Source: Flavobacteriales bacterium UBA2426
GTDB lineage: Bacteria; Bacteroidota; Bacteroidia; Flavobacteriales_F; PHOS-HE28
Assembly: GCA_002342985.1 (NCBI GenBank)
Contig: DDRC01000105.1
Coordinates: 1 to 12,585 of the forward strand
DNA: 12,585 bases
Reading direction: 5' to 3'
The notes below the pieces were generated by a model, which was given only the letters and a program-made list of their open reading frames with translations, was not told the DNA's origin and did no database searches. This document shows positions 648 through 12,585 of the stretch, one piece after another. The position numbers and the translations under genes are program-made. The number at the start of each line of letters is the position of its first letter. Position 1 is the first letter of the stretch.

Positions 648-3600
648 TCAGGGCAGCTGCTCGGTGCGCGTATTCGTTGGAATGCTGCCGCCGATGTTCT
701 GCAGGATGGGGTCACGGTCGTTGTCCTGCCCGGTGTACTTCACCACGCCGTCCAGGTTCACATCCTCCGGATGGTATCCGGTGGTGGTGGCCGTGGGCAG
801 GCTGCCCCCCACACGCACCAGGATGGGGTCGCGGTCGTTCTCCTGGTTGGTGTACCGCAGGATGCCGTTGCCGTCCACGTCGCCCGCCCATAGCGCGGCG
901 ATGGTGCCTAGAAGCTTGCGTGCATCGGTGCCGTACGTGGGCGTGGCCGGGTCGGCCAGGTCCACGCGCACCACGCCGGCGCCGAAGGCCTGGGCGCTGC
1001 TGGTCATGGTGGCGAGGTGATTGCGGTGCCAGACGGCCACCTTGTAGGACGCGCGCGGGGCATCGGGGAACCAGAGCGGCTCATCTCCGTCTGGCGTCAC
1101 CACGCGGCCATCAGCGAGCAGCACGGCGGCCATTTCGTCCACCACCGTCCCATGGTTTGCGCCATCGCGCAGCTGCACCATCACCCAATCCACGGGGGCC
1201 CCGGCACCGGTACGCTCGAGGAGCTCCGGCTTCATGGTGGCGCCTTGGCCGTATGGGTCGGAAGTGGGCAGGATGCCGGCTGTCAGCAGGTCGCTCCGCA
1301 TCGCCGTTCCGTTCCATGCCCCTTCCAGCACCATGCTCAGCGCCAGTTCTGCATCGCCATCGGAGTAGTCGAAGATGCCGTCCAGGTCACGGTCAACGCC
1401 ATGGCGGATCTTGGTGCTGGGGTGGACGATGGTCCAAGTGAGCGGGTTGCCGGCCTGCGCATGGGCAACCAGCTGAGCGTGCGTCACGGGTGGCGCTCCG
1501 TTGAGGTCGGGCTGGTAGTTGTTGCTCCCGAGGTAGTAGAAGCCCCGCAGCTCCCCCTGCCAGCGGCCCTTCACAACGAGCGCGTAGTCGTTCGGGTACT
1601 TGTTCGTCCAGTTCAAGAGCGTCCCCACACGGCCGGCGCTGCCCACGCTGCCATTGATGGTCATGCGCATTCCCACGGCCGGCATGGCATCCTGGATGGC
1701 ATGCACGCGGTCGAAGCCGTAGCTCTGCGGGCTGTTCGCCTGTGTGATGCCGCCGCTCCAGCTGAGCAGCTCCGGCTCATAGTCGCCGAGGTAATGCCCG
1801 GTGCCGTTCTGATTGAACCGGGTCTCCATCACCCCGTCGCTCATCATTCCGAAGCCGCTGGTGCATTCGGTGGTGTTATAGAAGAAGCCGTTCTTCCGGT
1901 AGGTGCTGCGCAGGTCGGGCACCATATTGGTGTTCAGGGCCATGTTCACCACGCCGGCGCTGGTGTTCGAGCCGTTGCCGGGCAGGTGTCCGCGTCCGCT
2001 CCCGGTCTGGTGGCAATGCGAGCAGTTGATGTTCACGGCGACGAAGAGGCTCACCCCGGCAGTGGGAATGGTCTGGAACGTGGTGCCCGTGAAGCGCACG
2101 CGGTTGGGATTGTTCATCCGCTCCACGGTAGCGGCCACCCCGGCGGTGTTGGTGTCCGGCCTGATGGTGCGGTAGGGGTTGGGGACGTACCAGGTGGCCG
2201 CGAGGAAATCGCTGAACTCCTGCATGCCCACCACGTCTAGCGGAGCATCCAGGCCCTGAAGGTCCTCGAAGGCACCGGCGAAGTCGTGGAAGCTGCCCTT
2301 GTCGCCGCGCCAATGAAGCTTGCCCGTGCCCCGGTTGATGATGTCGATGAGGAACTGGGTCGTCTTCAGCCCCTTCATCGGATGGTAGGTCTTATTGCCT
2401 GCGGGGTCGTTCACGGTGACCATTCCGCCGGCGGGATTGCCGAGGTCCCAGGCCAGGCGGTCCCAACGGCTATCCACATGGCAGCTGCCGCAGCTGATGT
2501 GACCGTGGCCGCTGCCCAGGTGCGTATCATAGAGATGCTTCCGTCCGACCTTGATCGCCTGCGGGGTGGGATCGAAATAGGAAGTGCGGGCCACCTCCTT
2601 GTTCGTCGCAAGGTCGATGGTGCTGATGCTGGCGCCGAACTTGTTGAGCACGAAGGCGCGGCCGCTGCCCTCATGCAGCACAACGCCTGTGGGCCCTTCT
2701 CCCACGGTGATCGGATCGGGGCTCACGCGCGCGCCCGTGGCGTTGATCATGATCACATTGTTGCTCCCCATGCCGGTGACATAGGCCGTGCTCCCATCGG
2801 CCTTCCAAGCGATGCCGCGCGGGTCGCCGATGGATTGCTTGCGCAGCGCAGGCGGCGAGCTGTGGGTGCTGTAATTGATGTGGGGGTTGAGGTCGGTGCG
2901 CGTCACCGCGCCCGCTCCGAGGAATCGCGACACGTTCACCGTGAGGAATTTGCCGCGCAGGTTGGGCTCGAAGCGCTTCTCATTGGTGGCATCGGTGCCC
3001 ACGACGAATACCTCGCCCGTTCCGGGCCGCACGCTCATGGCCATGAGGATGTTGCCGAGCGTCTGCTTGTAGGTGACGGTGGCGGTGCTGGGGCTGTTGG
3101 CGTTGATCATGGCCACGTCCCTGTCGGGCATGTCCCAGCCGGCGATGCGCGCTTTCCCCGGAGCGTTGCCGGAGACGAGGTTCGTCCAGTTGCCGCCATT
3201 GTCATCCATCCATTGGCCAGCGGCATTCTTGCGCACCACCAGGCTGTGATTGGCCTGCATGGGCGGATTGTTCGGGTTCATGGGCGGGTTGAATCCCGTG
3301 CCGGCGTTCGGTACCGGAACGGCTCCGCCATAGGGCCCTGCCGGATTGGTCACTTCATTCGGCACGGTGGTGCATCCGCCTTGCGGAGAGCAGAAGCCCC
3401 CGGCATGGAAGGAGTTGCCATTGAGGACAGTGGTCTGGTTCCCGCTCTCGAAGAAGGCGCAGTATACCGTGCCGCCGTCGGGGCTCACGGCCAGGGCGCG
3501 CGGCTGCTCGCCCTTCAGCAGCACCTGGGTGGGCGCGGAGTTCAGGTTGGCCAGGTCGAAGACCTGCACCATCTCCTGCTCGGCGCAGCTCACGAAGGCC

Positions 3601-4052
3601 TTCCCGCTCGCGAAGACCACATCGGCCGGCTCGTTCTCCGTGAGCAGGCTGCGCACGGTGGCCTTCAGGGTGAGGTCCACGATGCTCACCTCATCGCTGA
3701 TGGTGCACACCACCCAGGCTTCGTTGTTGGTGCGGGCGCGCACGGTCACGGGGTCGAGGCCCACGGGGATGCTGGCGGAATGGGTGATGCCGGCGGCGGT
3801 GACATCGAACACCTCCAGGCTGTTGTTGGCCGTGTTCACAGCCAGCAGCCGGGTGCCATCGGGCGTGAGGGCGATGGGGCTCACATGCGCCGACTCGAAG
3901 TTGGTGAACGCCGAAACAGGGACACCGCCTCCGATCGCCTTGGCGGAGCCGGTATCATCGGAAGGCCCCGGCTCGAAGGCCGAGAGGCCGGCGAAGAGCG
4001 AAAGCGCGGCGAGCGCAATGATGGACTTGCGGTTGGCGGCGAGGAAGCGCAT
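648..4052 (-). CDS. Secreted YVTN-type beta-propeller / diheme cytochrome c peroxidase-like protein with C-terminal calcium-loop repeats
   Basis: A 1134-residue protein with several parts. Residues 1 to about 25 are a signal peptide (MRFLAANRKSIIALAALSLF...). A beta-propeller of YVTN/lactonase type follows to about residue 500, with blade-like stretches such as ALTPDGTRLLAVN, LAVSPDGGTVYCAF and GIAWKADGSTAYVTG. Two c-type heme motifs come next, CGSCH at 521-525 and CSHCH at 677-681, with a PDLRSTYRKNGFF segment after the second as in the peroxidase/MauG family. A thrombospondin-3-like loop (DRDLDGIFD) is near 886, and two dockerin-like repeats close the protein. Known relatives are periplasmic or surface redox proteins; peroxidase activity here is inferred, and no classic type IX sorting tail is visible. 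The frame opens upstream at GTG 4103, but ATG 4052 directly begins the signal peptide and is preferred. The GGAGG at about 4090 is too far from that ATG to serve it and could argue for a GTG start. Confidence 0.8.
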   Translation of the reverse strand: MRFLAANRKSIIALAALSLFAGLSAFEPGPSDDTGSAKAIGGGVPVSAFTNFESAHVSPIALTPDGTRLLAVNTANNSLEVFDVTAAGITHSASIPVGLDPVTVRARTNNEAWVVCTISDEVSIVDLTLKATVRSLLTENEPADVVFASGKAFVSCAEQEMVQVFDLANLNSAPTQVLLKGEQPRALAVSPDGGTVYCAFFESGNQTTVLNGNSFHAGGFCSPQGGCTTVPNEVTNPAGPYGGAVPVPNAGTGFNPPMNPNNPPMQANHSLVVRKNAAGQWMDDNGGNWTNLVSGNAPGKARIAGWDMPDRDVAMINANSPSTATVTYKQTLGNILMAMSVRPGTGEVFVVGTDATNEKRFEPNLRGKFLTVNVSRFLGAGAVTRTDLNPHINYSTHSSPPALRKQSIGDPRGIAWKADGSTAYVTGMGSNNVIMINATGARVSPDPITVGEGPTGVVLHEGSGRAFVLNKFGASISTIDLATNKEVARTSYFDPTPQAIKVGRKHLYDTHLGSGHGHISCGSCHVDSRWDRLAWDLGNPAGGMVTVNDPAGNKTYHPMKGLKTTQFLIDIINRGTGKLHWRGDKGSFHDFAGAFEDLQGLDAPLDVVGMQEFSDFLAATWYVPNPYRTIRPDTNTAGVAATVERMNNPNRVRFTGTTFQTIPTAGVSLFVAVNINCSHCHQTGSGRGHLPGNGSNTSAGVVNMALNTNMVPDLRSTYRKNGFFYNTTECTSGFGMMSDGVMETRFNQNGTGHYLGDYEPELLSWSGGITQANSPQSYGFDRVHAIQDAMPAVGMRMTINGSVGSAGRVGTLLNWTNKYPNDYALVVKGRWQGELRGFYYLGSNNYQPDLNGAPPVTHAQLVAHAQAGNPLTWTIVHPSTKIRHGVDRDLDGIFDYSDGDAELALSMVLEGAWNGTAMRSDLLTAGILPTSDPYGQGATMKPELLERTGAGAPVDWVMVQLRDGANHGTVVDEMAAVLLADGRVVTPDGDEPLWFPDAPRASYKVAVWHRNHLATMTSSAQAFGAGVVRVDLADPATPTYGTDARKLLGTIAALWAGDVDGNGILRYTNQENDRDPILVRVGGSLPTATTTGYHPEDVNLDGVVKYTGQDNDRDPILQNIGGSIPTNTRTEQLP
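651..884 (-). repeat. Two tandem dockerin-like calcium-loop repeats (NDRDPIL type) encoded at the 3' end of the propeller-cytochrome gene
   Basis: The last 78 residues contain two copies, 39 residues apart, of D-V-[DN]-x-[DN]-G-x-[LV]-[RK]-Y-T-x-Q-[ED]-NDRDPIL, each followed by a GGS[LI]PT segment. The first half of each copy looks like an EF-hand/dockerin calcium loop. The protein ends TRTEQLP. A role in surface attachment, sorting or calcium-dependent folding is an inference from the C-terminal position on a secreted protein. Confidence 0.75.
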
Positions 4053-4107
4053 GGCTGTGCGGGTTGACTGTGCCGGCCGCCGCTCACTCACCTCCCTTCG
4101 CACCGCG

Positions 4108-5666: not shown

Positions 5667-7436
5667 ATGCCGCAGCGCCGCTGGTCGTTGGTCGCCGTTT
5701 GGGCCCTGTGCGCGCTGCTGCTCGGCCTGCGTACGACTCAGCCCGTGCGCCATGCCTTCACGTGGGACGTCTTCGGGTACTACCTCTATCTCCCGGCCAC
5801 ATTCATCCACCATGATCCCGGGCTGCGCAACCCCGCTTGGCTGGAAGCGTTGGTGGCGGAGCATGAGCCCTCGGCCACGCTCTATCAGCTGGTTGATGGC
5901 CCGGAAGGCGGGCGCGTCATCAAGTACAGCTCGGGCATGGCGCTCGCCTATGCTCCCTTCTTCGCTATTGCGCATGCGCTGGCAGGTCCGTTGGGCTTTC
6001 CTGCGGATGGCTTCTCGGCGCCCTACCGCGTTGCGGTCACCTACGGCATGCTGCTGTGGGTGATGCTCGGGATCTTCCTGTTCCGACGGCTGCTGCTGAA
6101 CTGGTTCGATGAGCGGACGACGGCCGTTCTCATGGTCCTGGTCGTACTGGGAACCAACTTCCTCCACCTGGCTGCTTTGGACGGCACGCTGCTGACGCAT
6201 CCGCTCCTCTTCACCCTTTATGCCGCCTTGGCGCTTGCCACGCAGCGCTGGCACCGCCATGCGGGCCTGCCGGCGGCGGTAGCGGTTGGGGCCCTGGCGG
6301 GCTGGATCACCCTGGTGCGCCCGAGCGAGGGCGTGTGCCTGCTGATTCCGTTGCTCTGGGCGGAGCCGTCGGGATGGCGCGCGAAGTGGCGCATGGTGGC
6401 CGATCGCTGGCCCCAAGCGGTGCTGGCGGTGACGGCCTTCGTGGTCATGGCTTCGCCACAGCTGGCATACTGGAGGCAGGTGACGGGCGAGTGGCTGTTC
6501 TACTCCTATATCAATCCCGGCGAAGGCTTCGATTTCGGCTCACCGCATACCTGGGATTTCCTGTTCAGCTTCCGCAAGGGCTGGTTCGTGTACACGCCGC
6601 TGGCGCTGGTCATGGTGGCTGGGCTCGGGGCCGTGCGGCAGCGCGCCCGTCACCTGTTCTGGCCGCTGTGCGCCTACCTGGCCGTCGACCTCTACGTGGT
6701 GAGCAGCTGGACGAACTGGTGGTATGCCGGCGGCAGCTTCAGCGCACGGAGCATGATGCCGGCCTATGCATTGCTCGCGGTGCCGCTCGGCTTCGCGCTG
6801 ACCGGCCCCGGCCGGCGCACCATGCTCGCGGCAAGCGCGGTCCTCGTCGTGCTGAACCTGTTCCAGACCTGGCAGTGGAGCCACGGCATCCTCAGCAAGG
6901 AGCGGATGACTGCCGGCTACTACGCCGCGGTTTTCTGCCGTACCGCGGTGCCGGCCGGGGCGGATGCACTGCTCCTGGTCGACCGTCCGCTCACCGAGGA
7001 GGAGGCGCTGAAGGATGAATCGGGTTATCACCGCTCGCTGCTCTACCGCAACACCTTCGATGACCGCCCCGAAGGGGTCTATGCCCTTTCCCCGGCCGAC
7101 CCGTTCACGCCTGGGCCCGATGTGCCGTTCAGGCGCCTCACCGGTGCGGATCACGCGTGGCTGCGCATCAGCGCCCGGCTATGGGTCACGGACAGCACCA
7201 CGGCTCCGCCCATCCTCGTGGCCACCTTCCACCACAAGGGTGAGACCTATAAGTACCGTGCGGTGAAGTGGGACCTCGGTGCGGCGGCCCCCGGCGAATG
7301 GTGCACCCAGCGCTTCGACTACATCACGCCCGAGGTGCGGTCCGCCGAGGACAACCTGAAGGTGTACATCTGGAACCAGGCCGGAGGTACGCATATCGTG
7401 GACGACCTGCAGGTGGAGCTCTTCGGCCCCAAGTGA
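5667..7436 (+). CDS. Polytopic membrane GT-C-like glycosyltransferase with C-terminal beta-sandwich-like domain
   Basis: A 589-residue protein. Residues 1 to about 440 hold roughly ten hydrophobic segments. The first extracytoplasmic loop carries acidic residues (FTWDVFGYY, Asp34; FIHHDPG, Asp50), as in ArnT/PMT-type GT-C enzymes that use polyprenyl-phosphate sugars. From about residue 450 the protein is soluble, with alternating beta-strand-like stretches (YRNTFDDRPEGVY, AWLRISARLWV, LKVYIWNQAGGTHIVDDLQVELFG) that look like a carbohydrate-binding jelly-roll domain outside the membrane. The open frame starts far upstream, inside the antisense of the dehydrogenase gene. ATG 5667 is chosen because the membrane protein begins there and a -7 box precedes it. 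The stop codon touches the stop of the next gene on the other strand. Membrane topology is clear; donor and acceptor are unknown, and enzymatic activity is inferred from fold resemblance. Confidence 0.75.
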   Translation: MPQRRWSLVAVWALCALLLGLRTTQPVRHAFTWDVFGYYLYLPATFIHHDPGLRNPAWLEALVAEHEPSATLYQLVDGPEGGRVIKYSSGMALAYAPFFAIAHALAGPLGFPADGFSAPYRVAVTYGMLLWVMLGIFLFRRLLLNWFDERTTAVLMVLVVLGTNFLHLAALDGTLLTHPLLFTLYAALALATQRWHRHAGLPAAVAVGALAGWITLVRPSEGVCLLIPLLWAEPSGWRAKWRMVADRWPQAVLAVTAFVVMASPQLAYWRQVTGEWLFYSYINPGEGFDFGSPHTWDFLFSFRKGWFVYTPLALVMVAGLGAVRQRARHLFWPLCAYLAVDLYVVSSWTNWWYAGGSFSARSMMPAYALLAVPLGFALTGPGRRTMLAASAVLVVLNLFQTWQWSHGILSKERMTAGYYAAVFCRTAVPAGADALLLVDRPLTEEEALKDESGYHRSLLYRNTFDDRPEGVYALSPADPFTPGPDVPFRRLTGADHAWLRISARLWVTDSTTAPPILVATFHHKGETYKYRAVKWDLGAAAPGEWCTQRFDYITPEVRSAEDNLKVYIWNQAGGTHIVDDLQVELFGPK

Positions 7437-8913: not shown

Positions 8914-10287
8914 ATGGATGCGCGCGGCGAGCGTTCGATTCCGTCATGGGCCGTGCTGCTCCTGCTGGTGGCCGTCAGCATCGGGGCACATGCGTCCATC
9001 CTGACGTGCACCTTCTTCAGCGACGATTTCCAGGTGCTCTGGCGGCTGCGCTCCGGCGAGGGCAGCAGCTTCTTCCGGCCACTGGCCGACCTCGCACTCC
9101 GCGCGAACCTGGCATTGACCGGGCCGGAGCCGTGGGCCTTCAGGGTGGTGAATCTGGCGCTGCTGGGCATCAATGGCTGGCTGGTGCATCTGCTGGCCAG
9201 ACGGCTGCTCAGCCGAGACGCCGCCTTCGCCGCAGGCTTGTTCTTCGTGCTGTACCCCTTCCACCTCGAGCCGCAGGCCTGGATCATCGGCCGCGGCATT
9301 GCCCTAGCGTCGGCGTTCACGCTGGGGGCCTTGGTCGTGGCAACCGGCAACGCGCCAACCACCAAGCGCACCATCGCGGTTGCATTGTTGGTGCTGCTCG
9401 GCTCACTGTGCTATGAGAGCGCGCTGCTGGCGCCCCTGCTGCTCGGCGCGTGGTGGCTCATCCTTCGGCCCACGGACGCGAAGGCCTGGCGCGCGATGTT
9501 GCTCGCATCAATCGCGGTGGTCGTGCTGAACCTCGCGTTGCGCTGGATGGTGCTTGGCGGCCTGGCGAATGACTATGGATCGGCCTTCTTCGTCAAGCCT
9601 GTGAGCGATTACCTCAGCGCGGCCTTCAAGGTCATCGGGCGCTCCTTCCTGCCGCCGCATGACGATCCCGCGGTGCAGACCGTGCGCTTCGCGCTGCTCG
9701 GCCTTGCGCTTACGCTCGTCGGGCTCTGGTTCTGGCGCTCGAACCGGTTCCATCCGGAGCGCCTGCGCGCTGCTGCGCTGGTGGCATCGCTCTACGGGAT
9801 CGCCTCCATCATCGCCATGGTGGGTGGTGTGAGCACGCGCACGAGCGAGAGCGACCGTTTCCTATTTATGCCCTCGGCATTCCTGTGTGTGCTGGTCGCG
9901 CTGGCGATGGAGGGTATGCGGTCGAAGGCGGTATGGCGGATGGCCCTCGTGATGCTGGTGGCATCATGGTCACTGCTCTTGCGACAGGGCCTGGGGCATT
10001 GGCGCACCGCTTCCGAGACCATCGATCGCATCATCGCAGACACACCAGAGCCGCCGCGCGGAGGGCGACTGCTCGTCCATAACCTGCCGAGTGATTACCG
10101 GGGGGCCTACATCTTCCGGCACGGGTTCCCGGAGGCGCTCCAGCTCAGCGGCCGGGGTGCTGCGGATGTTGTCTTGGTGCAGAAAGACCTGAGCCAGACG
10201 GTGGTCACCTACGACGGCGATACGCTGGTGGTGCGGGAGACGGATGTGCGCTACGATGCAAGCGTGGCACTCAAGCCGAAGCCTTGA
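8914..10287 (+). CDS. Polytopic membrane protein, PMT/TMTC-like glycosyltransferase candidate
   Basis: A 457-residue protein with about ten hydrophobic helices. The first outer loop has the double aspartate of PMT/TMTC-type GT-C proteins (FFSDDFQ, Asp37-Asp38) followed by FRPLADLALRANLAL near 54-68. Residues 114-128 (YPFHLEPQAWIIGRG) match the style of the HPxHVExVAWIxGR segment of TMTC-like and related bacterial mannosyltransferases. About 100 residues after the last helix form a soluble tail that begins near RLLVHNLPSDYRGAYIFRHG and is common to this bacterial group. Such proteins are expected to glycosylate secreted proteins or surface glycans from a polyprenyl-phosphate sugar. Its 3' end overlaps the dxs remnant on the other strand by 17 bp. 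An overlapping out-of-frame ATG at 8918 makes no sensible protein. Substrate unknown. Confidence 0.75.
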   Translation: MDARGERSIPSWAVLLLLVAVSIGAHASILTCTFFSDDFQVLWRLRSGEGSSFFRPLADLALRANLALTGPEPWAFRVVNLALLGINGWLVHLLARRLLSRDAAFAAGLFFVLYPFHLEPQAWIIGRGIALASAFTLGALVVATGNAPTTKRTIAVALLVLLGSLCYESALLAPLLLGAWWLILRPTDAKAWRAMLLASIAVVVLNLALRWMVLGGLANDYGSAFFVKPVSDYLSAAFKVIGRSFLPPHDDPAVQTVRFALLGLALTLVGLWFWRSNRFHPERLRAAALVASLYGIASIIAMVGGVSTRTSESDRFLFMPSAFLCVLVALAMEGMRSKAVWRMALVMLVASWSLLLRQGLGHWRTASETIDRIIADTPEPPRGGRLLVHNLPSDYRGAYIFRHGFPEALQLSGRGAADVVLVQKDLSQTVVTYDGDTLVVRETDVRYDASVALKPKP

Positions 10288-10441
10288 TGCCCTTCACGGC
10301 TCGCTTCTCCCCCAGCATCTCCTTCACCGCCTCCACCACCGCGATGTCATCAATGCCGCATTCGCGGTAGAGCTCCGGCTGTGTTCCGTGCTCGAGGAAG
10401 CGGTCGGGAATGGCGAGGCGCTTCACGTGGGCCGTGAAGTA
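10271..10441 (-). pseudogene. dxs: C-terminal remnant of 1-deoxy-D-xylulose-5-phosphate synthase
   Basis: The minus strand reads 56 codons and a stop, with no start codon that would make a gene. The translation contains HVKRLAIPDRFLEHGTQPEL and then YRECGIDDIAVVEAVKEML, the characteristic end of DXS (IPD.F.EHG....L..ECGID), in the C-terminal transketolase-like domain. DXS makes 1-deoxy-D-xylulose 5-phosphate from pyruvate and glyceraldehyde 3-phosphate at the head of the MEP isoprenoid pathway and is about 620-650 residues long, so over 90% is missing. The reading frame upstream is closed at once by the TGA at 10442-10444, which is the stop codon of the WG-repeat gene. No other DXS segment is in the window. 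The missing part was either displaced by an inserted or rearranged segment or lost at a wrong assembly join. An intact copy would be expected elsewhere if this organism relies on the MEP pathway. Confidence 0.85.
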
Positions 10442-11137
10442 TCAACTCAGACGAGTGACCAACCCCGCTTCGGATACGGCAACGGGATTGCCCTCCTGGT
10501 CGATCGCAAAAGCGACCCCATTGTAAAAGGGTTCCAGGTAGGGGAACCGGTGCGCGGCTAAGGGGCGACCAGACCGGTCGATATGGAACCAGCCCTTCTC
10601 GTCCAAAGCCAACGCAAAGCCCTTGTGGTATACGTTCACAAAGCGGTAGGTGTGCGCATAAAGGCGGCTGCCATCGAACCGGATGTGGAAAGCCTCACTA
10701 TTCTCTACTGCGCAAATAATCCCATCCCTGGCATCACCAGCGTAATCGAACCGTGCCGCATAAATCGGTCGCCCTTTGGAGTCGATGTGGAAATAGCCTT
10801 CCTTGGAGCGTACCGAACAGACGCCCTCCTGATAGTTGCCGCACCACGGGTATCGCTCAGGATAGCAAGCCTTGCCGCTCAGGTCGATGTGGAACCAACC
10901 CTCTGGATCCATTACAGCGGCCCTTGCGAAATAAAACCCAAAGGCTTTCTGGAAGCGGGCGGTGTACAATGGATGCCCATTAGCATCGATGTGGTACCAT
11001 CCGGATGCATCCTGAACCGGGGCCACGCCCGGTGCATGGAACGACATCACGGCTGTGAAGCGATCCCTCCATAGGGGCTTCCCCTCGAGCAGGAAGTGTG
11101 ATCCGTCCAATGATGGCTTAATATCACGCCAGTTCAT
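10442..11137 (-). CDS. WG-repeat protein with exact 34-residue periodicity
   Basis: A 231-residue protein without signal peptide or membrane segment. Residues 46-215 are five consecutive repeats of exactly 34 residues, each close to G-[WY]-[YF]-H-I-D-x-x-G-x-x-x-Y-x-x-R-[FY] followed by a more variable half (...GxxxAVxDxE). A degenerate copy of about 33 residues precedes them (near FLLEGKPLWRDRF), and a 16-residue tail closes the array. These are WG repeats, a family of extracellular or intracellular beta-rich repeats of generally unknown function, probably binding modules. The start is ATG 11137, not the earlier in-frame codon at 11359, because the extra residues lie inside the methyltransferase gene and have no repeat character. 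The ATG overlaps the upstream stop in an ATGA, so translation is probably coupled. The stop codon directly abuts the dxs remnant. Function unknown; it may present or regulate the two enzymes encoded before it. Confidence 0.85.
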   Translation of the reverse strand: MNWRDIKPSLDGSHFLLEGKPLWRDRFTAVMSFHAPGVAPVQDASGWYHIDANGHPLYTARFQKAFGFYFARAAVMDPEGWFHIDLSGKACYPERYPWCGNYQEGVCSVRSKEGYFHIDSKGRPIYAARFDYAGDARDGIICAVENSEAFHIRFDGSRLYAHTYRFVNVYHKGFALALDEKGWFHIDRSGRPLAAHRFPYLEPFYNGVAFAIDQEGNPVAVSEAGLVTRLS

Positions 11138-12087
11138 GATCGTTGCGCTTTGATGATGGCCTGCTTTCCGTGATGTACATGGTCCAGGACCAGGAATCCT
11201 GAACGCTCCAGGAGCTGCTCGTATTCCTTCACGGAACGCTCCCGGCTTCCGCAAACGGCAAGCATGTTCATCGATAGCAGATGTCCTCCATCCCCCAAGA
11301 GGGACAGATCGTTCTCGATGAGATGGAGGGCTCCATGTGGGGGGAGTGCTGCGTGGCAATTCCCAAGGATCGCCATGGCTTCGGCATCATTCCAATCATG
11401 GATGACCCTGCTCAGGAGCAAGGCATCGGAGCCTTCCGGAACACCCTTGAAGAAGTCGCCTTGGAGGAACGCCACATCGCGGGTGCCTTCGGTACGGTGG
11501 TCTTGGATATCGAAGATGCGGAAGGTGACTTCCGGATATGCTGCTCGCAAGGAGCCGATCAGCGCCCCATTGCCGCCTCCCACGTCCATGACCGATCGGT
11601 ATTGGGACAGGTCCAGGACATCAGCTATTCCCTTATAGTCCTGTGAGGCATATGCGAACATGGCTTTATGGTACTCGACGGCGCGATCCGGAAGACCGTC
11701 CAAGTAGCAGAAGAAAGGAGCACCATAGAGTATGGGAAAAACGGCCTGTCCCGAGCGGATGCTGACGTCAAGCTGCTGCCAGGCATCCATGTGCTCGGCG
11801 CCCCACAGCAGGCAGGCATGCTTCGCACTTTCAGGATGGTCAGCACATAGCCGCTCAGCCTCTGGTGATAGACCGAGCCCGATATCCGATCGGCGCAAGT
11901 AGCCTTCATGCACAAGTGCCCCGATGAGGTTATCCAAAGCACGTGCATCTGCGTTGATGACCGAAGTGAGGTCCGCCACATTCCGCATGCCCGAAGCGAT
12001 GTGATCGAAGAGGTCCAGTTTGCACGCCGCCCTGACAGCGAGGTACTTCCAGTATCCGGTGAAGAGGTGCTCAAGTCGTTCAGCCAT
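11134..12087 (-). CDS. SAM-dependent O-methyltransferase (family 2, dimerising winged-helix N-terminus)
   Basis: A 317-residue protein with the layout of the plant-COMT/acetylserotonin and antibiotic O-methyltransferase family. An N-terminal helical/winged-helix part for dimerisation covers about 8-85 (KYLAVRAACKLDLFDHIASG, LDNLIGALVHEGYL). A Rossmann domain follows, with SAM motif I DVGGGNG at 168-174, the ribose-binding acidic residue in FDIQ (Asp193), GDFF at 210-213, HDW at 230-232 where His230 is the likely catalytic base, and Glu258 in LIENDL as its partner. All key residues are present, so it should be active. Members methylate hydroxyl groups of small aromatic or polyketide-like metabolites; the substrate here is unknown. 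The start overlaps the phosphatase stop by 8 bp, and the stop overlaps the WG-protein start by 4 bp, a tight operon. Base composition is lower in GC than the genes left of 10441. Confidence 0.92.
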   Translation of the reverse strand: MAERLEHLFTGYWKYLAVRAACKLDLFDHIASGMRNVADLTSVINADARALDNLIGALVHEGYLRRSDIGLGLSPEAERLCADHPESAKHACLLWGAEHMDAWQQLDVSIRSGQAVFPILYGAPFFCYLDGLPDRAVEYHKAMFAYASQDYKGIADVLDLSQYRSVMDVGGGNGALIGSLRAAYPEVTFRIFDIQDHRTEGTRDVAFLQGDFFKGVPEGSDALLLSRVIHDWNDAEAMAILGNCHAALPPHGALHLIENDLSLLGDGGHLLSMNMLAVCGSRERSVKEYEQLLERSGFLVLDHVHHGKQAIIKAQRS

Positions 12088-12585
12088 GGATCAATCGTTG
12101 TTGAAGGTCCGCGATCTCGTGGTCGGCAACGCCGCAGTTGATCAAGTATCCCCGAATGCCTCCTTCGCGCTCAATGATCTGGAGCACGATCTCCAGGTTA
12201 TGGGCGTACGTGTCGGACTCGCTGGCGAGGTAATCGACCAACACTACTTCCCTGTCTGCCCCGGACAAGAGATGGAGCAATGTGCACACAATGCCGGTCC
12301 TGTCCTTGCCGGCATGGCAATGGATCAACGCTCCCTGTCCTTCAGGCACTCTGCGCAGCGCGTCGACGACCGCCTTGATGCTCTCCCGGCACCCCAGCGC
12401 GAAGAAGCGATAGGCAATCTCCTGGTTGCCACCCTGCTGATAGGCGGGTTCCTTGAACCAATCGGGTTGCGCCCACGGGTCGAATGGGGCATGCACATAG
12501 TGGACCTTGCTCAGCGCTTCATCGGAGTATGCGTGCTCTTCCAGTTCCTGGGGTGCGCGCAGATCGATGATGGGGTGAATGGTGT
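12080..12585 (-). CDS. Tyrosine/dual-specificity-type protein phosphatase (Y_phosphatase3-like), 5' end outside window
   Basis: 167 residues are visible, and the frame is open through the right edge without a start. A methionine-like GTG at 12496 lies in the middle of the domain and is not the real start. The visible part begins IHPIIDLRAPQELEEHAY, the usual opening strand of bacterial tyrosine phosphatases (IDLRxxxE). It holds the P-loop HCHAGKDRTG (encoded at 12293-12322) with catalytic Cys and Arg in C-x5-R, and ends with a GGIRGYLINCGVADHEIADLQQRL segment typical of the Y_phosphatase3 group. The GKDRT form is shared with enzymes acting on phosphotyrosine, phosphoserine/threonine or phosphoinositides, so the substrate is open. 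It is the first visible gene of a coupled set with the O-methyltransferase and the WG-repeat protein. Confidence 0.88.
   Translation of the reverse strand, partial: TIHPIIDLRAPQELEEHAYSDEALSKVHYVHAPFDPWAQPDWFKEPAYQQGGNQEIAYRFFALGCRESIKAVVDALRRVPEGQGALIHCHAGKDRTGIVCTLLHLLSGADREVVLVDYLASESDTYAHNLEIVLQIIEREGGIRGYLINCGVADHEIADLQQRLIHG

Follow-up and report, generated by a model that had tools for sequence, protein, structure and literature searches.

A second dxs 3' tail downstream of the complete gene, and its recurrence beside unrelated cargo in one bacterial genus

The dxs fragment and its surroundings

The window, by which we mean the whole stretch of 12,585 nucleotides analysed here, is contig C153 of a MAG (G000) in 256 contigs. 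Its minus strand carries, outside any gene, the 3' end of dxs, an essential gene of the MEP pathway. The reading of window:10271-10441 (-) is YFTAHVKRLAIPDRFLEHGTQPELYRECGIDDIAVVEAVKEMLGEKRAVKGIKASA*, has no stop inside, and shows 80% amino acid identity to the end of the complete DXS that the same genome encodes on contig C119 (E 5.8e-27). On one side of the fragment is a gene of the opposite strand, which is convergent with dxs in several members of the genus, and on the other is a run of genes here called the cargo. The features are as follows.

8914..10287 (+), right-hand neighbour, native, without a Pfam match; its stop overlaps the fragment end
10271..10432 (-), putative displaced dxs 3' tail (about 53 codons plus stop), outside any gene; 80% amino acid identity to the intact DXS, same place in G058
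10410..10432 (-), 23-bp core, identical in the fragment and in the intact dxs of C119 (alignments, exact matches); probable crossover region
10442..11137 (-), WG-repeat protein, last cargo gene (PF14903, E 2e-11), with relatives of near-equal length
11134..12087 (-), O-methyltransferase (Methyltransf_2), cargo (PF00891, E 9.3e-35)
12080..12585 (-), nucleotidyltransferase-tyrosine phosphatase fusion, cut at the contig end, with its remainder on C119:2-1057

A preliminary description of this DNA had reported a DXS C-terminus of 56 codons that ends, with no spacer, at the TGA of the WG-repeat gene. The resemblance and the adjoining stop codon, at 10442-10444, hold good, and the breakpoint placed near 10441 is borne out to within about 10 bases. 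The codon count and the missing spacer need correction, because DNA homology, whether to the related genome G009 or to the intact copy, begins only at the core, at window 10432, which is 9 nt from the TGA; the initial residues YFT consequently cannot be assigned to dxs with confidence, which leaves about 53 genuine codons. With 231 amino acids against 232-233 in relatives elsewhere in the genus, the WG-repeat protein looks complete, so that the stop codon probably belongs to the gene itself and did not arise at the breakpoint. Farther off in the window, a gene at 648-4103 (-) encodes a large protein whose matches are of beta-propeller type and, weakly, di-haem peroxidase-like, and which has two similar repeats at its end.

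The preliminary description also took dxs to have been cut short, and proposed looking in the rest of the genome for a complete copy and for one lacking its 3' end. A complete dxs of 646 codons is present on C119, and the gene is also complete in G058, a genome of the same species assembled as one contig and 99% complete, so that a truncated pseudogene as the sole dxs is ruled out. In G058 the intact dxs tail (C1:2921943-2922107) and the fragment (C1:2929401-2929568) are on one strand, the fragment being downstream, with 7461 bp (7.46 kb) from core to core. No dxs without its 3' end was found in G000: a DXS_N search yielded a single strong match, of full length, besides two weak ones, and a tail search at E < 0.1 returned the two tails only.

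Because one-contig G058 carries the same junction of WG-repeat gene and fragment, the suggestion that the window might be a chimeric contig, or be binned in error, can be given almost no weight. In its favor are the origin of the contig in a 256-piece MAG and the break between C119 and C153 within the cargo, with about 150 nt in common; against it, the window shows no mismatch to G058 from 10386 to 12573, across the junction. The start of C119 nearly repeats about 150 nt of C153, and the window contig ends inside the nucleotidyltransferase-phosphatase gene. The shared stretch indicates that the two are adjacent contigs left unmerged, and they align to G058 as two halves of one stretch, C119 having 2 mismatches over its first 8000 nt and the window 1 over its 2144 nt of insert.

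The insert of G058 consists of eight genes, all Pfam-scanned, which run from the intact dxs to the fragment in the order AAA ATPase, DUF4258-like protein, glycosyltransferase (GT4), radical SAM protein, AAA_33 protein, Polbeta nucleotidyltransferase fused to Y_phosphatase3, O-methyltransferase and WG-repeat protein. The first encodes an ATPase with AAA-type Pfam matches only, Sigma54_activat leading; this RtcR-like ATPase at the left end of the cargo (L067:7132-8085, minus strand) has RtcR_PspF1 as its best PADLOC match, over model positions 182-439 of 468. The DUF4258-like match is below the cut-off, the radical SAM protein carries SPASM, and the AAA_33 protein is kinase-like. GC content is 57.6% in the insert versus 65.1 and 66.5% in its flanks.

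Related GT4-radical SAM-WG clusters exist at other loci of G009, G023 and G026 (79% DNA identity over 2.4 kb), with a more distant relative in G004. The radical SAM gene is present in 6 of the 45 genus genomes (E 1e-15); the nucleotidyltransferase-phosphatase was found only in its own genome among 395 phylum genomes (E 1e-20), and has at least 580 matches in the protein database at E 1e-3. Among 19 genomes compared, these cargo genes adjoin dxs only in G058 and G000. It had been argued beforehand that relatives with the same gene end beside an ordinary gene would make the dxs resemblance spurious. The WG relatives in G009, G023, G026 and G004 are indeed not followed by dxs, which means that the cargo occurs at several places; the match to dxs is not thereby spurious and is still genuine. 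We found no published description of this cargo in the open-licence literature searched. A separate observation in G004 (L198, contig C3, near 12108-12422, minus strand) is a degenerate tyrosine-recombinase C-terminus (PF00589, E 2.3e-8) just upstream of the related GT4-radical SAM-methyltransferase-WG cluster.

Relationships of the two tails

The two tails of one genome are only about 75-86% identical, and the intact tail differs from the window fragment at 18 positions in the first 120 nt. In a tree of the dxs body G058 joins G009 (100/99), and the intact dxs matches that of G009 at 93-98% per 60-nt bin across the last 360 nt before the core. Beyond this point the identity of the intact tail to G009 is 97% in the first 30 nt, then 80, 70, 100 and 47% in the next 30-nt bins. 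At sites that differ between the intact tail and the window fragment, G009 sides with the fragment 13:3 (p=0.02, 16 decidable sites) and G066 with the intact tail 13:3 (p=0.02), while other genomes are near even (G063, G062 and G018 9:8, G015 8:8, G024 7:10). The same test using G058's own fragment gives 6:4 for G009 and 3:10 for G066, not significant.

Since the intact dxs is G009-like through the core and then departs, and the fragment's tail is the more G009-like of the two, the alignments argue with moderate strength that the fragment is probably the displaced native end and that the intact gene would have an imported tail. The amount of tail divergence lends this reading no support: in an outlier test over 595 pairs, G058-G009 had a residual of 0.03 sd, what its body distance would lead one to expect, because dxs tails diverge fast. 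The tail tree is weak, with few supported nodes, and the fragment edge varies with the reference, a gapped alignment against G063 having extended it to -79.

It is formally conceivable that the dxs end was simply duplicated and the copies then split by an insertion, with no imported tail. Such a duplication would account for both copies being dxs tails on one strand and for the extra short tail remnant right after the intact dxs of G024, but it does not sit well with the 18 differences in the first 120 nt or with G009 and G066 falling on opposite sides, and we regard it as improbable. Displacement of a native end by an imported one accordingly remains the reading followed below.

The two strains of the window species are almost identical in dxs and insert, but less so in the fragment, with 10 differences over 171 nt, and in the right flank, with 149 over 5329 nt. 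Between window positions 6942 and 10385, the last fragment mismatch, divergence from G058 climbs from the near-zero level of dxs and insert to about 1-14% per 400 nt, and the switch falls within the dxs fragment. Elsewhere too G000 and G058 are mosaic, with near 99.7-100% identity interrupted by stretches of about 93-98%, from which we conclude that homologous exchange is common. Taken with the divergence switch, this mosaicism makes it possible that the endpoint of a more recent homologous exchange lies within the fragment. The two fragments differ at 8 sites in their first 120 nt, at which G009 equals the window at 8 of 8 and the intact G058 tail equals the G058 fragment at 6 of 8, a pattern that could reflect gene conversion.

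Recurrence in the genus

The tail search covered 45 genus genomes representing 44 species, G000 and G058 being counted as one, and 42 genomes matched. A second dxs tail is present in four of them: G000 and G058, which are one species, G024 and G008. The two further species have the same layout around unrelated cargo, 17.7 kb in G024 and a 0.75-kb HEPN-MNT pair in G008. A longer tail query matched 173 of 198 class genomes, with two matches in the four genus genomes and in G039; the second match of G039 is absent from the 20 kb examined on the contig that carries its dxs. Among named Bacteroidota, 80 dxs loci were collected, of which one had no gene end, and none of the 79 scored had a second tail within up to 10 kb. 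A search for the core pattern with up to 3 mismatches gave nine places in 8 of the 45 genus genomes, all at dxs tails; this search is insensitive, as neither the window fragment nor that of G058 was picked up. In G026 (C7 near 32350, L169) dxs matches only to about residue 621 and is then followed by a different reading, for which a frameshift and a further tail change are candidate explanations.

In G024 the distance from core to core is 17.7 kb, and the fragment is a 56-codon open frame whose edge is 6-8 nt before the core, directly preceded by the TGA of a cargo-side ORF of 176 amino acids. The core region has 2 mismatches in the first 21 nt, followed by 38 identical nt. At the sites where the tails of G024 differ, G066 sides with the fragment 17:3, G058 16:6 and the other six references 12:9 to 15:7. 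The insert, whose 14 ORFs of at least 70 amino acids were all Pfam-scanned, encodes a histidine kinase, a LytTR regulator, a DDE transposase, secreted proteins with sorting tails and a TonB-C protein, and has a GC content of 56.1% versus 63.6 and 62.9% in the flanks. The third dxs tail of G024 is a short remnant located 25-114 nt beyond the intact stop (L068/L069); it suggests more than one round of tail exchange.

The insert of G008 consists of an NTase_sub_bind (HEPN-type) gene and a Polbeta (MNT-type) nucleotidyltransferase gene, after which comes the fragment. Decay restricts the alignment of this fragment to the part from about +50, and noise enters the alignments beyond; its 36-nt leader aligns no better than shuffles, 83% of which score as high. 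Over the final ~35 nt the tails differ at 18 sites, at 15 of which G033 agrees with the fragment, and the exchange can be placed only somewhere before about +126. GC content in the insert is 65.0%, equal to the 65.4% of the left flank. The sequence after the G008 fragment resembles that after the G024 fragment.

The empty site is represented in other species by G063 and G009, which have one dxs tail with fam4 and fam1 downstream; the order in insert-free G063 is dxs, fam4, fam1, fam2, fam3. In the window species fam4 was not seen between the fragment and fam1.

Possible mechanism and relation to known systems

Direct observations are the junction, a whole dxs and its fragment on one strand, the unlikeness of the two tails, and the presence of this layout in three species. 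They are best explained, and in our judgement probably so, by the insertion into dxs of cargo that carried its own dxs tail, by which the gene was rebuilt and the native tail displaced. In the window species a cargo of 7.46 kb with its own dxs 3' tail, perhaps arriving as a circular or otherwise mobile unit, would have recombined with the chromosomal dxs within its final ~53 codons. Through this crossover the native body of dxs would have acquired the tail that the cargo brought, so that the gene stayed whole, while the original tail was cut off from it and came to lie at the other end of the insert, immediately behind the WG-repeat gene. Of the origins first proposed for the breakpoint, insertion is the one that fits best.

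It is somewhat more probable that the crossover was made by a recombinase acting at the core than by RecA or microhomology, to which we assign a smaller but appreciable chance. A recombinase is favored because the change points of the intact gene and of the fragment are in or beside one 23-bp block, and because the fragment edges are near-equal in two unrelated cargos. No recombinase was found by Pfam scan among the 8 genes of the G058 insert, the 14 ORFs of the G024 insert or the 2 genes of the G008 insert, so an autonomous integrase within the insert was rejected as a candidate and the enzyme would have to act in trans or have been lost. The sole mobility gene in the three inserts is the DDE transposase of G024. 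Among the matches listed, no PF00589 domain on the dxs contigs of the genus is closer than ~650 kb to dxs, and the nearest in G058 is about 800 kb off. Two sources of a dxs tail serving as attP were also considered and rejected: a phage, for which 8 pattern matches in viral contigs gave none confirmed, and a plasmid, for which only an annotated Parabacteroides dxs was found among plasmids.

The alternative is an additive import of the dxs end and downstream genes of a related species, mediated by RecA or microhomology without a dedicated recombinase, through recombination in dxs on one side and joining within dxs on the other. It would fit inserts that lack a recombinase, a G024 cargo resembling ordinary chromosomal genes, the common homologous exchange seen in the mosaic strains, and the loose placement of the G008 exchange. 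It does not readily explain why the change point and the fragment edge of G058 are both in or next to the 23-bp block when a longer stretch of identity (39 nt, at +90) could have served, why two unrelated cargos have fragment edges so close together (about 0 nt in one, -6 to -8 nt in the other), or why the cargo genes adjoin dxs in only 2 of the 19 genomes compared, and we consider such an import less likely but still a strong competitor.

Insertion of tail-carrying cargo may be extended, more tentatively, to the proposal that the dxs 3' end is a dedicated acquisition site in the genus. Non-autonomous cassettes of 0.75-17.7 kb, the smallest being the 0.75-kb HEPN-MNT toxin-antitoxin-like pair, would be integrated by a recombinase supplied in trans, and the C-terminal ~50 residues of DXS would be swapped between species, with dxs staying whole each time. 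If insertion at dxs is correct, an essential MEP-pathway gene can act as a landing site, an insertion can replace its coding tail with the frame retained, and where a MAG shows a stranded gene end the cause can be the edge of an island instead of faulty assembly. That unrelated cargo recurs at this site offers a concrete place to seek the missing recombinase. No report of dxs as an integration site was found in the open-licence literature searched.

Integron gene cassettes can carry small toxin-antitoxin-like cargo that ends close to the recombination point. The G008 insert would be similar in its small toxin-antitoxin-like cargo near such a point, but the joint here is dxs coding sequence. 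Islands that, as proposed for dxs, use one end of a conserved protein-coding gene for integration are described in the available portions of PMC8409611 and PMC4482086, at the 3' end of trmE (SGI1) and the 5' end of dusA; the dusA islands bring a named integrase family, whereas none was found in the dxs inserts.

The closest likeness is to the genomic islands mapped by Islander and TIGER (PMC4383910, PMC12884075), for which the available text of PMC4383910 gives a rebuilt target with a displaced old end as the mapping signature. As far as these sources extend, the target is there too rebuilt by island sequence with the displaced fragment at the other end, and unrelated cargo occupies one site in several species, of lower GC in two of three cases here. 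At dxs the intact target and a displaced fragment in the same orientation flank the interval, and Pfam detects no integrase inside it in G058, G024 or G008. The candidate core blocks at the two ends are identical over 23 bp in G058 and the window, and differ at 2 of the first 21 nt in G024; in G008 the block would fall outside the alignable part of the fragment, which begins at about +50. The dxs case differs from those islands in that the target is a protein gene and not a tRNA gene, the three inserts lack a detected integrase, one cargo is only 0.75 kb, and the two tails in a genome have diverged to about 75-86% identity. Even with inserts in which no recombinase was found, the arrangement is of a known kind, the regenerated target and displaced fragment of genomic islands, here at dxs.
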